Of a stretch of 59,093 bases of DNA, positions 1 to 59,093 are shown piece after piece. The DNA is from Desulfosporosinus sp. (GTDB taxonomy: Bacteria; Bacillota; Desulfitobacteriia; Desulfitobacteriales; Desulfitobacteriaceae). The notes beneath the pieces are model-generated. The model was not told where the DNA came from. It worked only from the letters and a program-made list of their open reading frames with translations, and did no database searches. The stretch covers positions 1-59,093 of the forward strand of contig JAIMKP010000018.1 of NCBI GenBank assembly GCA_020692355.1, read 5' to 3'. The position numbers were made by a program, and so were the translations under genes. The number at the start of each line of letters is the position of its first letter. The first letter of the stretch is position 1.

Positions 1-54
1 GGTAGACTCCCCCACCGAAGTCTCGATGTTCAACTTTAGTTGAACGAATTCACT
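1..54 (+). repeat. Structured repeat, right part (copy C, cut by window edge)
   Basis: Right-hand 54 bp of the three-hairpin repeat seen in full at 47503-47619 and 58937-59054. It keeps the 3' arm of hairpin 2, hairpin 3 (GTTCAAC-TTTA-GTTGAAC) and the end GAATTCACT. It stops 9 bp short of the aspartokinase stop codon on the opposite strand. The left part lies outside the window. Confidence 0.85.
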
Positions 55-63
55 TATATGATC

Positions 64-8546: not shown

Positions 8547-8573
8547 GTTCATCTTTAGTTGAACGAGTTCACT
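8547..8573 (+). repeat. Partial structured repeat (copy D) in the kdd leader
   Basis: Hairpin 3 plus end only: GTTCATC-TTTA-GTTGAAC followed by GAGTTCACT. One stem pair is broken compared with copies A and C. It lies between kdd and the terminator of the next gene, in plus orientation. Confidence 0.75.
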
Positions 8574-21580: not shown

Positions 21581-21606
21581 TTCAACTTTAGTTGAACGAG
21601 TTCACT
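21581..21606 (+). repeat. Partial structured repeat (copy E) forming the ypmA stop
   Basis: TTCAAC-TTTA-GTTGAA hairpin then CGAGTTCACT, identical to the end of copy A. On the minus strand it supplies the TGA stop codon (21602-21604) of the ypmA-like gene. Confidence 0.8.
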
Positions 21607-44072: not shown

Positions 44073-45287
44073 TCATCCCACTTTTAAACACGCGAAGGTA
44101 ATGTCATCCTCCTGCTGACAATTTCCGATATACTGGCTAACATGAATCGTTAAACTGTCAACGATTTGCTGTGCGCCAAAAAGAGAATTCTTGCTTACGA
44201 CGTCAACAATATTGTTTAACCCGAATTGTTCACCGCTAGAGTTAGTAGCTTCTGTTACGCCGTCGCTATAAAAGAGTACAACATCACCGGCCATCAACTG
44301 CACCCCTATTAATTGGTATTTTTTATTTTCAATGCCCCCAATGTAAGCACCTTTAACTTTCAATAACTCATATTGACCGGTTGCACTATGAAATACAAGT
44401 GGAGGAAGATGTCCGGCATTGGCTAAAAGAAGAATTTTCTTTACAGGCTCATAAAGAGCATAATGTAATGTTACAAAAGTTTCTCGTTCAACCAAGTCAC
44501 GATAAAGGGTATTATTGACTTCTTCAAGCACCACATGGGGTTGGACACCGCTCTTAGCTATTGTACTTAAAGTTACCCTTGTCATAGCCATCCATAAAGC
44601 CGCCGGGATTCCTTTTCCCATGACATCCCCCAACGCAATTCCCACCAACTTGTTTTGAGTTTGAAATATATCCAGATAATCGCCTCCCACTTCATGGGCA
44701 GTTATCGATTGAAAGGCAATAGAGCTACCCTCGGGTTGAAGTGCTTTCTTGGGCAAGAAAGAGGTTTGGATTTGCTTAGCAATCTCCAACTCTTTGCTGA
44801 GACGCTTGTGATTAGAACCGGAGAAATTCCGGTAATTATGTAGCCCTTGAGCCAAGTCGGCGGCGATTAAAGTAACTAAAGAAACAATGTGTTTACCAAT
44901 ATCCCTATTAACAAACCAGAGACAAATAGCCCCAACTACATCCCCATGGCTGGAGAGTTGCGTAGCGAGAGACAATAATCTTTGTTTTTTGATATTTACC
45001 TGTGATTTCTGCCAGTTCAAAGCTCCTTTTCTTTCCATAGCCTGGATGGCTGCCTTAAAATCCAAAGTTGGAAGATCAGGGGGCAAGTTGTCCTCACCTA
45101 CAGAAAAAGCCAGTCGTTGCTGACCGACTCCGCCGTTAGGCCTTGCCAACCAAATGCTGCAGCAAGCCATCTGTAGATTTCTGCACAGTTGCTGCGCAAT
45201 CTGTTCAAATACTTCAGGTTCTTCAGGCGCCTTGAGTAATAAAGAACAGACTTGGTAAAGGAGTTTTTCCTCCTTCACTTCCGACAT
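44073..45287 (-). CDS. SpoIIE-type PP2C phosphatase with GAF-like domain
   Basis: 404-residue protein. The N-terminal ~160 residues look like a GAF sensor domain. After the linker KELEIAKQIQTSFLPKKALQ comes the PP2C domain with AHEVGGDYLDIF, IALGDVMGKGIPAALWMAM, NAGHLPPLVF, LFYSDGVTEATN and QEDDITFACL; the metal-binding Asp residues are present. It should dephosphorylate STAS partners. ATG at 45287 overlaps the preceding stop (TGATG), coupling it to the HD-GYP gene. Confidence 0.9.
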   Translation of the reverse strand: MSEVKEEKLLYQVCSLLLKAPEEPEVFEQIAQQLCRNLQMACCSIWLARPNGGVGQQRLAFSVGEDNLPPDLPTLDFKAAIQAMERKGALNWQKSQVNIKKQRLLSLATQLSSHGDVVGAICLWFVNRDIGKHIVSLVTLIAADLAQGLHNYRNFSGSNHKRLSKELEIAKQIQTSFLPKKALQPEGSSIAFQSITAHEVGGDYLDIFQTQNKLVGIALGDVMGKGIPAALWMAMTRVTLSTIAKSGVQPHVVLEEVNNTLYRDLVERETFVTLHYALYEPVKKILLLANAGHLPPLVFHSATGQYELLKVKGAYIGGIENKKYQLIGVQLMAGDVVLFYSDGVTEATNSSGEQFGLNNIVDVVSKNSLFGAQQIVDSLTIHVSQYIGNCQQEDDITFACLKVG

Positions 45288-46360
45288 CACAGTTCACCTT
45301 CTTCTAATATCCGGATTATGTAGAAGTCCGGATTTGAAGCCAACTCCATCTCATAAGGGGGAATAATTCTGTTCCCCTGCGAGTTCACCAGCAACCTCAC
45401 TTTAGGCCTTGTTGGGTATTCTCTGAAAGTTTCCACAACCACAGCTTTCTCCTGTGTATTTAACATGACCAATGTTCCGACCGGAAAAAGGGCAATGGTA
45501 TATATAAAATGCTCTACGACTTCAGGGGCAAAGAATTTTCCGCTGTTGGCAATGATTAATTCCACAGCTTGCAATGGCGAAAGGCGTGCGCGACCAGCCC
45601 TACCGCAGGTTAATCTGTCATATATATCTGCAACTGTGACAATTCGCGCAAATTCATTAACTTCATCCCCGCGCAACTGTCGTGGATATCCTGTGCCATC
45701 GTAGTGCTCGTGGTGCTGGAGAGCAACATGGGCAACCTGCAAACTAAGACTTTCTATTTTACGCAGGATATGGAATCCGATAGTCGTATGTTCCTCGAAT
45801 AATTCTTCTTCTTCATCAGTTAACGGTGTAGTCTTAATCAGCATATTTTCCGGGACAGCCGTTTTTCCCACATCATGAAATAGCGCTCCAGCTCCCAGTA
45901 TTCTTAATTTATCCTTGCCAAAGCCCATTGTTATGGCGGTAATAAGGGAGAGAATGGCAACATTAACACTATGCCCAAAGGTGTAATCATTCATCGCACG
46001 TATATCAACCAAATTCACAATCAGGTCACGATTGTTCAGCAACTCATTGATGATATCATTAACCGCCTCATTAATTCTGGCAAGATTAAGCGAGGGATTC
46101 AGCCTAATGTTTTCCATAGTTTCTTTAGTACATTTTATTGCTTCTAACCTGGTCTTTTCGGAAACCACGTCATCGACTTGGATATCGCCCACGGACTCGT
46201 CAACTATATACAGAACAACTATGCCTAACTCTTTCAGCCTCTCAATATATCTTGGAGTTAATGCAACTCCCCTAGCCAACAACGTTTCCCCATTCGCCCC
46301 GTAAATGGTTCTGCCTACTTGCATTTGGGATTCAACTTTTTCAATCGGAACAACCCGCAT
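45287..46360 (-). CDS. HD-GYP c-di-GMP phosphodiesterase
   Basis: 357-residue protein. DUF3391-like N-terminal part, then HD-GYP: FGHSVNVAILSL, LFHDVGKTAVPE, EEHTTIGFHIL, HHEHYDGTGYPRQL and TVADIYDRLT. A short beta domain follows (NTQEKAVVVETFREYPTRPK). All catalytic motifs are kept. ATG at 46360 follows GGAAGGTG. Together with the first gene, it means two predicted c-di-GMP hydrolases lie behind one c-di-GMP riboswitch. Confidence 0.9.
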   Translation of the reverse strand: MRVVPIEKVESQMQVGRTIYGANGETLLARGVALTPRYIERLKELGIVVLYIVDESVGDIQVDDVVSEKTRLEAIKCTKETMENIRLNPSLNLARINEAVNDIINELLNNRDLIVNLVDIRAMNDYTFGHSVNVAILSLITAITMGFGKDKLRILGAGALFHDVGKTAVPENMLIKTTPLTDEEEELFEEHTTIGFHILRKIESLSLQVAHVALQHHEHYDGTGYPRQLRGDEVNEFARIVTVADIYDRLTCGRAGRARLSPLQAVELIIANSGKFFAPEVVEHFIYTIALFPVGTLVMLNTQEKAVVVETFREYPTRPKVRLLVNSQGNRIIPPYEMELASNPDFYIIRILEEGEL

Positions 46361-46389
46361 ATCATCACCTTCCATAGTAATTATTAAAT

Positions 46390-47943
46390 TCAATCAGGTG
46401 ACCACTCGAACGTTTCTTTGCCACAAAGGTCGATCACGCCTAATATTGTAAAAAGCTTAAAGATATTTTGGGAGATATTCTTATAGCGGACAAAAATATT
46501 TCGTTCCCTAGATTTCTTGACTGCTTCAATTATCCCAGCTATCCCAGTTGAATCAACACAAGTAATCCCGCTAAAATTTATTTCTAAGCACTCTATTCCC
46601 TCAAAACAATTCACGCTGGACTTAAAAGCCTCCACTGTGGAAATGTCCAAGATCCCGGATAAGTTTAAGCTCCCCTTGTCATCCACAACATTGGCTTCAA
46701 TCTTTAAGACCCCTCCAGTAATAATTTTTCCGAACCTTTGATCTGCCTGATGCTTAGACCTATGAGAACCATTAAAATCAATGGCGTTAATCGATAGGGC
46801 AAGATCCTGACTCAAATCTACAATTTTTTCTTCTTTAAACCGGTTGCCTTGCTGATTATACATAACTCTTACAGTTGGACGAGTGGGCAGTACAGGTGAA
46901 ACTGCGATAACGGTTCCTATTTCCCCTGTGTTCAAAGTTACTGTGGAGTTTTCCGGATAGATATGTAAACAACACCTAAATGCATGCACAACGTCCGGGG
47001 AAAAATTCTGATTTATGCCCGAAAAAATCATTTCCAGGGCGTGATAAGGGGGTAAAGCCCGCCTGTAAGGACGGTCTTCCGTCAGGGCGTCATAAACATC
47101 CGCCAGTGCTACAATTTGGGCGTTTCGGTGAATTTCCTCTCCCTTTAACCCATCAGGGTATCCTTGCCCATCCCACCGTTCATGGTGTTGACGAACTACT
47201 TTGACTACTTCCTCAGGTAATTTACTCCAGCGTAACATTTGTTCACCACAAATTGGATGTTGTTTAATTAACTCAAATTCAGATGACGTTAAACCTGATG
47301 GTTTATTAAGTATTTCACTTGGAACACTTAGCTTGCCCCAATCGTGAAGAAGAGCTCCCAGAGCCAGATTATGAAGCGTTTCTTGGGTATAACCCGTCTG
47401 CATCCCAATCACTATCGCCAGTAACGTCACGTTAATGGAATGAATATAAGTAAGCTTATCGTACGTTTCTAGGGCGTTGAAGTAAACATAAGAGTATGAT
47501 TCATCCAATCGTGAGACTCCCACTTCTACAAGTGGGAGTGGTACCTCGTACTTTGCTTCGGTGGGGGTAGACTCCCCCACTGAAGTCTCGATGTTCAACT
47601 TTAGTTGAACGAGTTCACTTTCCATTTCTATAAGAATCTGGTTTAATATATCTTTCGCCTTAGATAGATAATCCGCACGAACTAAATTTGTTTCATAATA
47701 TAAGGGATTTATTAAATTCAATGCTTTATGATGTTCTCTTGATAGAGGTATATGAGGCCTGTTTGTCCAATTATATGTAACACTACTAACCTCTTGTTTA
47801 CGGATTACCTGCAGAATTTCCGGTGAAACAAGTTTGCCCTTTTCTAAGAGCAATCTACCCTGAGCGTCAAATAAATCTTGTTCTAAAGCTTGTCCTGTCG
47901 ATATTGAAACTTGTAAAGGTGTAATTTGGAAATTCAAGATCAT
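46390..47943 (-). CDS. HD-GYP phosphodiesterase with C-terminal STAS domain, carrying an in-frame repeat
   Basis: 517 residues, first gene of the operon. HD-GYP motifs: YIHSINVTLLAIVIG, LLHDWGKLSVPSEIL, HHERWDGQGYPDGLKG. Then a beta domain (NTGEIGTVIAVSPVLPTRPT) and a STAS domain (~410-517) with phosphosite CVDSTGIAGIIEA. Between the N-terminal region and the HD motif, about 39 residues (SELVQLKLNIETSVGES...VSRLD) are encoded by repeat copy A read antisense, and the frame stays open. ATG at 47943 follows GAGGGGG. The domain joined to STAS suggests direct coupling of c-di-GMP turnover to partner switching. Confidence 0.88.
   Translation of the reverse strand: MILNFQITPLQVSISTGQALEQDLFDAQGRLLLEKGKLVSPEILQVIRKQEVSSVTYNWTNRPHIPLSREHHKALNLINPLYYETNLVRADYLSKAKDILNQILIEMESELVQLKLNIETSVGESTPTEAKYEVPLPLVEVGVSRLDESYSYVYFNALETYDKLTYIHSINVTLLAIVIGMQTGYTQETLHNLALGALLHDWGKLSVPSEILNKPSGLTSSEFELIKQHPICGEQMLRWSKLPEEVVKVVRQHHERWDGQGYPDGLKGEEIHRNAQIVALADVYDALTEDRPYRRALPPYHALEMIFSGINQNFSPDVVHAFRCCLHIYPENSTVTLNTGEIGTVIAVSPVLPTRPTVRVMYNQQGNRFKEEKIVDLSQDLALSINAIDFNGSHRSKHQADQRFGKIITGGVLKIEANVVDDKGSLNLSGILDISTVEAFKSSVNCFEGIECLEINFSGITCVDSTGIAGIIEAVKKSRERNIFVRYKNISQNIFKLFTILGVIDLCGKETFEWSPD
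47503..47619 (+). repeat. Full structured repeat (copy A), inside an HD-GYP gene
   Basis: About 117 bp, plus orientation. Hairpin 1 ACTCCCACTT-CTAC-AAGTGGGAGT; hairpin 2 CTTCGGTGGGGG with CCCCCACTGAAG; hairpin 3 GTTCAAC-TTTA-GTTGAAC; end GAGTTCACTT. 117 is 39 codons, so the host frame survives. Resembles an IS200/IS605-type right end and TnpB guide-RNA scaffold; no transposase gene is attached. Confidence 0.85.
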
Positions 47944-48009
47944 CCACCCCCTCATATAAAGCAAATCATCACCACCTAGCAGGCAGTGACGACACTTACA
48001 AAAGCCTGT

Positions 48010-48095
48010 GTTTGGTAGTCCGGCGATCATCATCCTAAAATGGAAGACCCGTAACTTTGCGTCCCTAACTTTCGTCAAGTTTGCCTTTTTCGCAC
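48010..48095 (-). promoter_or_regulatory. Class I c-di-GMP riboswitch (GEMM-I)
   Basis: Minus-strand leader of the HD-GYP operon. GGCAAAC, then a hairpin CTTGAC-GAAA-GTTAGG with a GNRA tetraloop, then the invariant GGGACGCAAAG, then the P3 side and ATGATCGCCGGACTACC. This is the GEMM-I order and spacing. About 65 bp separate the aptamer from the start codon, and ACAGGC...GCCTGC within it could act as the expression platform. Confidence 0.92.
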
Positions 48096-48427: not shown

Positions 48428-49675
48428 CTAACTAACTCCCTTAAACAGCCCCGGAAAGAGGGTTGCCGCCAATAATAAAAGGGTTAAAACAATCAAGATC
48501 CCGGTAAAAGTCCAGGCTACCCCATTATAGGTGCGGGAGTTGGCGTAATCTCCCATCAGCTTCTTCTTACTTGCGATCAGCATCATGAACACCAGGATCG
48601 GAGGTAACAAGATCCCATTAATCACCTGAGTCGTCAACATCACCCGATAGAGAGACAACCCCGGCCAGAGCACTAAACCTGCACTAATCCCGATGATGGC
48701 GGTATAGAGTCCGAAAAAAACGGGTGCCTCTTTGTAGGACTTGCTCACGCCATGCTCAAAACCAAACGCTTCGCACACGGCATAGGAAGTGCTCAACGGC
48801 AGGACAAAAGCTGCCAGCATTGAAGCCCCTAATAAGCCAAAACCGAAAAGAAGACTAGCATACTCACCCGCGACCGGGCGCAAGGCAATGGCCACATCCT
48901 TGATGGTTTCGATCGAAATATGATTTACAAAGAGAGTGGTAGCCGTGGAAACAATGATAAAGAACGCAATGAATCCGGTAAAAAATGAGCCCACGAATAC
49001 GTCCCAGCGGGTGTAACGGTACTCCTTGGCAGTAATCCCTTTATCCACCACAGAGGCCTGAACATAGAATTGTCCCCAGGGGGTAATGGTCGTTCCGATG
49101 ACCCCAACCGCCATGAGCAGAAACTCCGGACTCCCGCCAAAGTTCGGAGTAATAGATTGCACGAGAACCTCTTTCCAGGGAGGATGAACAATGAACCCCG
49201 ACAAGACATAACTAAAAAATGATAGGCAGAGGAGTAGGAACACTTTTTCTATCTTTTCGTAATCCGTTTTAATCACGAGCCACCAAATGATGCTGGCCAT
49301 CAGGGGAACAGAAATATACTTGCCGACCCCAAGAATTTCAAAACTCGTGGCAATCCCGGAGAATTCGGAGATAGTAGTCCCTAAGTTCGCCACCATGAGC
49401 ACGCCCATGGCAAAGAACGTCCAACGCACCCCGTAATGCTCCCGGATCAAATCAGAAAGCCCCCTGCCCGTGACCGCACCGGTTCGAGCCGACATCTCTT
49501 GAGCGATAGCCAAAAAAACCGTACTTACGATCATCGTAAAAATAAGGGCATAACCGTACTTGGCCCCCGCCGCCGCATAGGTGGCAATTCCTCCTGCATC
49601 ATTATCAGCAAAGGCGGTCACAATCCCTGGACCCATTACGGACAAAAATAGAAACAGCCGTGCTCTTTGAGACAT
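48428..49675 (-). CDS. NRAMP-family transporter, probable Mg2+ importer (NRMT-like)
   Basis: 415-residue LeuT-fold transporter with about 11 membrane segments. In TM1 the canonical metal motif DPGN reads ADNDAGGIATY. In TM6 the usual MPHN motif is absent, with GVIGTTITPWGQFY instead, so the metal-binding Met is missing. Loss of that methionine marks Mg2+-transporting relatives (NRMT), as I recall from work on a NRAMP-related Mg transporter. An M-box Mg2+ riboswitch directly upstream agrees with this. ATG at 49675 follows GAGGTGAG. Divalent-metal transport is secure; Mg2+ specificity is inference with two independent supports. Confidence 0.85.
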   Translation of the reverse strand: MSQRARLFLFLSVMGPGIVTAFADNDAGGIATYAAAGAKYGYALIFTMIVSTVFLAIAQEMSARTGAVTGRGLSDLIREHYGVRWTFFAMGVLMVANLGTTISEFSGIATSFEILGVGKYISVPLMASIIWWLVIKTDYEKIEKVFLLLCLSFFSYVLSGFIVHPPWKEVLVQSITPNFGGSPEFLLMAVGVIGTTITPWGQFYVQASVVDKGITAKEYRYTRWDVFVGSFFTGFIAFFIIVSTATTLFVNHISIETIKDVAIALRPVAGEYASLLFGFGLLGASMLAAFVLPLSTSYAVCEAFGFEHGVSKSYKEAPVFFGLYTAIIGISAGLVLWPGLSLYRVMLTTQVINGILLPPILVFMMLIASKKKLMGDYANSRTYNGVAWTFTGILIVLTLLLLAATLFPGLFKGVS

Positions 49676-49755
49676 CCCACTCACCTCAATCATAGCTAAC
49701 TATCATAGTATGCCCCGATTCCGTGGAGCGTTCCCAAACCGCATTAGGCAAGCAC

Positions 49756-49837: not shown

Positions 49838-50006
49838 ACTCTGACCTTCTCTTCTCATCGAGCTTTGGCACTGCACAACGTAGAGCACCGCTCAGCCACA
49901 TTAAGTAAGACCTTAAGCCGGTCATACCTGTTATACCCCTTGGCGTCTCTCGACATTTCCGGGCAGTGGCCTGTGTTCATACAGGAGCCTCACCTAACAG
50001 AGAATG
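49838..50006 (-). promoter_or_regulatory. M-box (ykoK) Mg2+ riboswitch
   Basis: Minus-strand segments GTTAGGTGAGGCTCCTGTA, CCACTGCCCGGAAATGTCG, AGAGACGCCAAGGGG and GTGCAGTGCCAAAGCTC match the M-box consensus in order. CTCTG and CAGAG at the two ends can form the closing stem P1. Controls the NRAMP-family gene. Confidence 0.92.
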
Positions 50007-50022
50007 TTTAATTGTCACCTTA

Positions 50023-58852: not shown

Positions 58853-58936
58853 CGTTCTCACCTCAATACGGGAATTCGACCCACAAGGACATAAATCCTC
58901 TTTATGCTTGGATGTTTCTTAGTAAACTCTCTCTTT

Positions 58937-59054
58937 ATCCAATCGTAAGACTCCCACTTCTACAAGTGGGAGTGGGTCCCCCGTACTCTGCTTCGGTGGG
59001 GGCAGACTCCCCCACCGAAGTCTCGATGTTCAGCTTGAGCTGAACGAGTTCACT
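58937..59054 (+). repeat. Full structured repeat (copy B)
   Basis: About 118 bp, plus orientation, 84 bp upstream of the FtsA-like start. Same three hairpins as copy A, with hairpin 3 changed to GTTCAGC-TTGA-GCTGAAC: an A-to-G change in one arm is matched by T-to-C in the other. End GAGTTCACT. Confidence 0.85.
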
Positions 59055-59093
59055 TAGCCAAACCAATGCGAATATTGCGGGTCAAATTTTGGG

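Follow-up and report, generated by a model that had tools for sequence, protein, structure and literature searches.

What becomes of a protein when a short non-coding repeat comes to lie inside its gene? This question is raised by a 59,093-bp stretch of DNA from Desulfosporosinus sp. (contig JAIMKP010000018.1 of the assembly GCA_020692355.1; the whole stretch is called the window below), in which a hairpin-rich repeat is situated antisense to, and in frame with, a gene for an HD-GYP/STAS protein. The repeat is very probably a young insertion of a non-autonomous, hairpin-ended mobile element that has been tolerated in frame. The results showed that further genes of Desulfosporosinus relatives contain members of the same family, read there in the same frame, a recurrence missed by an earlier note on this DNA. 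They also showed that the family members enter between TTNAT and T without duplicating the target, and that the commonest form lengthens the site by 114 bp.

The repeat and its HD-GYP host gene

The host gene, the repeat and its parts are located in the window as follows.

46390..48078 (-): host gene of the HD-GYP and STAS protein, a 562-aa open reading frame (ORF) with the insert at residues 154-193
47500..47619 (+): full footprint of the repeat copy, as delimited by sharp-ended copies with random flanks
47500..47504 (+): TTCAT, the left part of the target site and presumably older than the insertion, judging by TTNAT^T in 117/150 elements and the empty IspH-S1 and TcdA sites
47505..47618 (+): putative inserted core, 114 bp or 38 codons, from the net gain in IspH-S1 and TcdA
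47516..47539 (+): left subterminal hairpin of the DNA fold, ACTCCCACTTCTACAAGTGGGAGT
47556..47585 (+): central hairpin of the DNA fold, CTTCGGTGGGGG..CCCCCACTGAAG
47593..47610 (+): right subterminal hairpin of the DNA fold, GTTCAACTTTAGTTGAAC

The ORF on the minus strand spans the whole repeat on the plus strand, as the earlier note had claimed, and its view that the repeat is not a gene in itself is supported. The place that it gave, 47503-47619, was also right; the extent had to be revised, as the left edge lies 3 bp further out and the copy measures 120 bp instead of 117 bp. Likewise, the insert is indeed in frame and free of stops, but the net gain is 114 bp, or 38 codons, and not 39.

The consensus TTNATCC...GTTCACT was obtained from 124 copies, in which the conservation drops sharply at both ends and the flanks are random. 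The genome of the window (3.36 Mb, 101 contigs) contains at least 39 near-full copies among 42 matches, a lower bound given that 40 of the 206 first-look candidates were scored. The right-end motif occurs there 138 times at ≤1 mismatch, which by our arithmetic is about one per 24 kb, and the reversed-pattern control gave 0. Since 39 near-full copies and 138 right-end motifs stand against none in the control, a chance origin of the repeat is excluded. The repeat was found in 20 of the 41 genomes searched (its own and 40 relatives), and a pattern scan of named genomes returned 45 stretches, all of them from Desulfosporosinus, Acididesulfobacillus, Peptococcaceae bacterium CEB3 or metagenome-assembled genomes of Bacillota. 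Both the DNA fold of the plus strand (z -6.7) and the RNA fold of the minus strand (z -5.1) were better than any of 200 shuffles. No Rfam family was found for the repeat, either in the element or in ten loci with long forms or neighbours, and the phage and plasmid collections gave no match to it.

The copy in the window differs from its sister copies (e.g., L003, L007 and L008) at a single position of the central hairpin, where a G-C pair has become G-T and the codon still reads Ser. In the host protein, the inserted segment is SELVQLKLNIETSVGESTPTEAKYEVPLPLVEVGVSRLDE, without a stop. The residues 154-193 are counted from the listed TTG, although translation more probably begins with the ATG at 47943 (residue 46). 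The segment lies at a domain boundary just N-terminal to the HD domain, and the domains are intact (HD_5 205-355, E=2e-32; HD 210-331; STAS 460-551), in agreement with what had been read from the sequence earlier. HD-GYP phosphodiesterases carry the signature HHExxDGxGYP, which is present in the host ORF as HHERWDGQGYP. The MAFFT alignment of the protein with the best 22 of 39 matches showed that the segment is missing in 22/22 homologues with both flanks aligned, which is the clean gap that the earlier note had expected. The phosphodiesterase with the insert probably still works.

Target site and in-frame copies in other genes

The empty form of the insertion site was seen in two other host genes. 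The insert in IspH-S1 of one Desulfosporosinus genome is absent from 25/25 aligned orthologues of the genus, and the insert in TcdA of another is absent from 27/27 aligned orthologues; of these 27, three are themselves shorter around the site and one ends there. Compared with these orthologues, the net gain equals the element minus 6 bp (two codons), because TTNAT and T are already present at the target. In the 23 of 25 orthologues whose codons were read out at the IspH site, these form an unsplit AAT GAA-type pair, i.e., TTCATT on the opposite strand, indicating that the element goes between TTNAT and T; the TcdA empty site rests on the protein alignment. Of 150 distinct elements, 117 have the exact hexamer TTNAT^T at the insertion point, and direct repeats flank the elements no more often than chance, meaning that the target is not duplicated. 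As judged by eye, the ends TTNATCC and GTTCACT are not inverted copies of each other. In the tolerated phase, the target site is an Asn-(Glu/Gln/Lys) codon pair (AAT NAA).

The ORFs around the 150 elements were examined after removal of the element by a script, requiring an ORF of ≥150 aa with 40 residues on each side. Seventeen elements were inside ORFs, 11 in frame and 6 out of frame. The six out-of-frame ORFs cross copies that are sited between longer neighbouring ORFs, and these copies were taken as intergenic. Meanwhile, all 11 in-gene elements are read in the same frame throughout, and their cores are 114, 120 or 180 bp long. Their hosts are the HD-GYP protein, IspH-S1, TcdA, AddA, MutY, an ABC ATPase (where the element separates the two ATPase halves), a GvpL/F-type protein, an Eco57I-type methylase, an MptE-like/methyltransferase protein, a protein that we take to be YqeC-like, and an unnamed membrane protein. 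The count of 11 is incomplete: the ORF finder overlooked the in-frame copies L282, L286 and L289, and the hosts that it missed are a PrpR-type regulator, a protein that by eye is glycosyltransferase-like, and a further ORF. The alignment of AddA with the PDB places the insert between two matched stretches; the PDB alignments of MutY and TcdA stop before the insert.

Diverged copies that nevertheless stay open are found in IspH-S1 and the MptE-like protein. As most of the bacteria that rely on its pathway cannot dispense with IspH, the diverged open insert of IspH-S1 is the best case for long-term tolerance.

Several candidates were not accepted as internal insertions into working genes. The FabH copy L004 is in frame as expected, but its gene is a fragment ending soon afterwards; in this fragment (L004 1372-1908, G000:C19), the repeat sits at VDTN/WIISRTG and the early end of the gene has another cause. 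The copies at L003 (MurE), L297, L293 and L299 lie at or before the likely start codons, and those at L294, L295, L296 and L301 lie near N-termini; none of them was counted. It was also observed that one methylase gene recurs, together with its in-frame insert, at L291 and L292 on two contigs of a single assembly (G050), which is either a duplicate gene or an assembly overlap.

Reading frame, filter and rival explanations

Essentially a single frame is open across the 120-bp footprint: of 129 distinct copies, 71 are open in the frame that the window uses, and 29 in the other five together (111 alignment rows that were short, near an end or duplicate-free partial were dropped). Among 2,932 potential TTNATT sites in ORFs, 636 (22%) are in the tolerated phase, and a strong preference of the target site for this phase was ruled down to a mild one (22% vs 17%). 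Loci found by DNA similarity or pattern supplied 135 of the 150 elements, and five of the 11 in-gene cases: the window, L107, L110 (kept under L330 in the de-duplicated list), L114 and L141. All five are in the tolerated phase, for which we calculate P ~0.0005 from the 22% if no filter operated. As just 22% of the potential sites in ORFs are in this phase, the 5/5 points to a filter. An insertion in the orientation and phase that reads AAT NAA as codons leaves the gene open with 38 more residues. Insertions that break genes would be purged, and the in-frame ones would remain. In the HD-GYP protein, the segment may be a tolerated linker just before the HD domain.

The selection on the peptide was assessed outside genes, with the 46 of 65 copies of the 114-bp class that have 3-35 differences; one in-gene copy fell in this divergence range, and the codon-position test therefore covers the copies outside genes. 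The changes were distributed evenly, with 136 in the first, 134 in the second and 143 in the third codon position, and the ratio of synonymous to non-synonymous changes was 90:230 compared with 92:242 for random changes. This even, random-like distribution shows that the peptide of the element is not maintained as such outside genes, where 9 of the 65 copies have a stop in the frame of the window. The copy in the window is set apart from its sisters by one synonymous change, so it is too recent for selection to be visible.

Three points weigh against a young, tolerated insertion of a mobile repeat. No DNA-level orthologue of the exact host gene lacking the insert was found; the best match in the other genome of the genus (G001, 83% complete) is a homologue of 51% identity that carries 2 stops. 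Open frames partly guided the choice of the in-gene sample, as further cases came from a 40-aa peptide search and from 20 regions fetched for their open frames. Finally, no intact Y1 or TnpB gene is bounded by the ends of the element among those scanned, namely 30 of the 49 Y1 matches in relatives, all 4 of another Y1 set and all 8 TnpB-domain matches; the own assembly breaks at repeats, which limits the hunt for an autonomous partner with the same ends.

Among the rival explanations, the one that survives best, though unlikely, is that the insertion has inactivated the protein, leaving its gene on course for decay. A recent gain of 38 residues adjoining a catalytic domain would fit this. The intact ORF, HD domain, GYP motif, STAS domain and riboswitch leader argue against it, but weakly, since a young insert would show no decay yet. 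The leader and the remaining genes of the operon are listed here.

48010..48094 (-): aptamer of a c-di-GMP-I-GGC riboswitch (Rfam RF03167, 67.7 bits, gathering score 59), within what is presumably the 5' leader of the host gene
45287..46393 (-): a further HD-GYP gene in the same operon, which lacks the repeat
44073..45290 (-): third operon gene, from the ORF listing

By eye, we take the third gene to encode a PP2C/SpoIIE-type phosphatase. Elsewhere in the window, an M-box (Mg2+) riboswitch at 49843-50008 (-) is situated upstream of a metal-transporter-like ORF at 48428-49693, NRAMP-like by eye.

It is also doubtful that the family is selected for translatability, i.e., that it is a selfish, protein-invading element which keeps one frame open. 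This would account for the in-gene core lengths of 114, 120 and 180 bp, all multiples of three with one common frame, as well as for the 8 stops seen outside genes where ~16 were expected (our arithmetic, from the random share of 17/351 applied to 328 changed codons). Nevertheless, the substitutions outside genes look neutral in being even over the codon positions, and many copies in relatives have stops in that frame.

True domestication, in which the segment is kept for a benefit to the HD-GYP protein such as a longer linker N-terminal to the HD domain, appears improbable. The frame has been kept, the segment is at a domain boundary, and IspH-S1 and the MptE-like protein hold copies that diverged without closing; yet an in-frame survivor is expected even without a benefit. 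The earlier note had called the repeat "domesticated"; in the sense of a function kept by selection, this word is not borne out by a copy with one synonymous change in a family without codon-position bias outside genes. "Tolerated in frame" is the description that the data support. The misjoining of two contigs at the repeat is very hard to credit even in an assembly of 101 contigs, several of which end in the repeat, as the two flanks align in register with one family of homologous proteins, and other genomes and genes display the same pattern.

Other forms of the repeat, candidate enzymes and known systems

Besides the copy in the HD-GYP gene, the following copies were located in the window and beside transposase-like genes.

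58934..59055 (+): another full copy in the window (91% identity), which no open frame crosses
1..55 (+): right portion of a further copy, inside which the contig starts
L180 2261-2502 (G000:C75): diverged full element beside a RAYT-like gene
L215 ~1199-1450 (G000:C29): element copy with a TnpB-domain (PF07282) fragment ~50 bp away

One-ended or minimal forms, consisting of a solo right end (CTTTAGTTGAACGAGTTCACT) and lacking the remainder of the element, were seen at 8547-8573, where TTCAT precedes it, and at 21581-21606 of the window. A head-to-tail array of about three 24-bp units (GATCTTTAGCTGAACGAGTTCACT) is present at L153 109-173 (G000:C10), and the element at L008 ~1501-1620 (G000:C90) is flanked by two near-identical ~22-bp units (GATGTGCTCACCTCTATTCGTT). 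L148, L149, L161, L169, L172 and L174 are longer forms with the same ends and extra hairpins, without an Rfam match; according to the element finder, the cores of the longer forms reach ~370 bp.

The Y1 transposase and TnpB loci scanned were rejected as the source of the ends. An exception to their general lack of association with the repeat is the RAYT-like gene of L180, the sole one found in the genome, whose stop codon is followed, 13 bp further on, by the diverged full element. The profile scan of 11 Y1 loci detected a significant element copy in L180 only, and none in the ten others, eight of which have RAYT-like ORFs of relatives. With a right-end motif every ~24 kb, this adjacency may be due to chance. 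The other exception is L215, whose TnpB-domain fragment near the element copy could be a relic of an autonomous partner.

Among known mobile elements, a classical miniature inverted-repeat transposable element was ruled out by the absent target duplication and the ends that are not inverted copies. The repeat resembles IS200/IS605 elements in the subterminal hairpins at both ends, the fixed short target and the lack of duplication, and differs from them in having no transposase inside. An excerpt of PMC2806898 states that ISDra2, a member of this group, inserts 3' of TTGAT. The subterminal hairpins together with this insertion mode fit IS200/IS605-type chemistry, so the repeat may move by a single-stranded reaction (Y1/HUH, IS200/IS605-like) with a TnpA or RAYT-type enzyme acting in trans. 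The high copy number, the hairpins and the RAYT-like gene with a diverged copy nearby are also reminiscent of REP/REPIN sequences with their RAYT. In the portion of PMC8266576 consulted, the GTAG motif is described as crucial for the E. coli REP enzyme. By eye, the repeat has GTAG solely in the loop of the central hairpin and none 5' of the outer hairpins, and because this tag is absent beside them, the REP/RAYT assignment lacks support.

NCBIfam holds models of Rickettsia palindromic elements, and 0 NCBIfam models matched the 40-aa and 62-aa peptides of the element at E≤10. The repeat works like the Rickettsia elements and, by the NCBIfam test made, is not a member of them in sequence. The matches listed in the literature search included insertions of this kind in Rickettsia, Coxiella, enterobacteria and Mollicutes; no work on such a Desulfosporosinus repeat was among the best matches in a search covering few subscription journals, and an earlier description is possible. 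Enterobacterial RU repeats and Coxiella QMITE1/2 appear in excerpts of PMC2759123 and PMC5896051 as small mobile repeats able to add coding sequence. The latter excerpt places the QMITE insertions in functional annotated genes at 3' ends, whereas the insertions described here are internal and in conserved enzymes.

It is reasonably likely that this hairpin-ended family of Desulfosporosinus-type Bacillota routinely writes segments of 38-60 residues into proteins such as IspH-S1, AddA, MutY and TcdA. The insertions would tend to fall in polar loops because the target reads Asn-(Glu/Gln/Lys) in the tolerated phase. Translation, tolerance, usefulness and the mobilising enzyme then become testable questions in cultivable Desulfosporosinus strains.

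The closest parallel in the way of working is found in the Rickettsia palindromic elements (PMC10969869, PMC5896051), which a 2024 review (PMC10969869) describes as short many-copy repeats present in frame in unrelated genes and giving a conserved peptide. There, high-frequency in-frame invasion of proteins by palindromic elements is known from Rickettsia, and a similar mechanism in other prokaryotes is called just "conceivable". Our repeat shares with them the in-frame insertion into unrelated genes (11/11 here, with orthologues lacking the insert). It differs in its hosts, which are Bacillota and not Rickettsiales, in the defined target TTNAT^T and in having most copies outside genes. The present case is an unrelated Bacillota family with a defined target site, empty orthologue sites and inserts in conserved enzymes; if the proposed explanation is true, this family would parallel the Rickettsia palindromic elements independently and in a mechanistically readable form, and would supply new protein segments outside intracellular bacteria.
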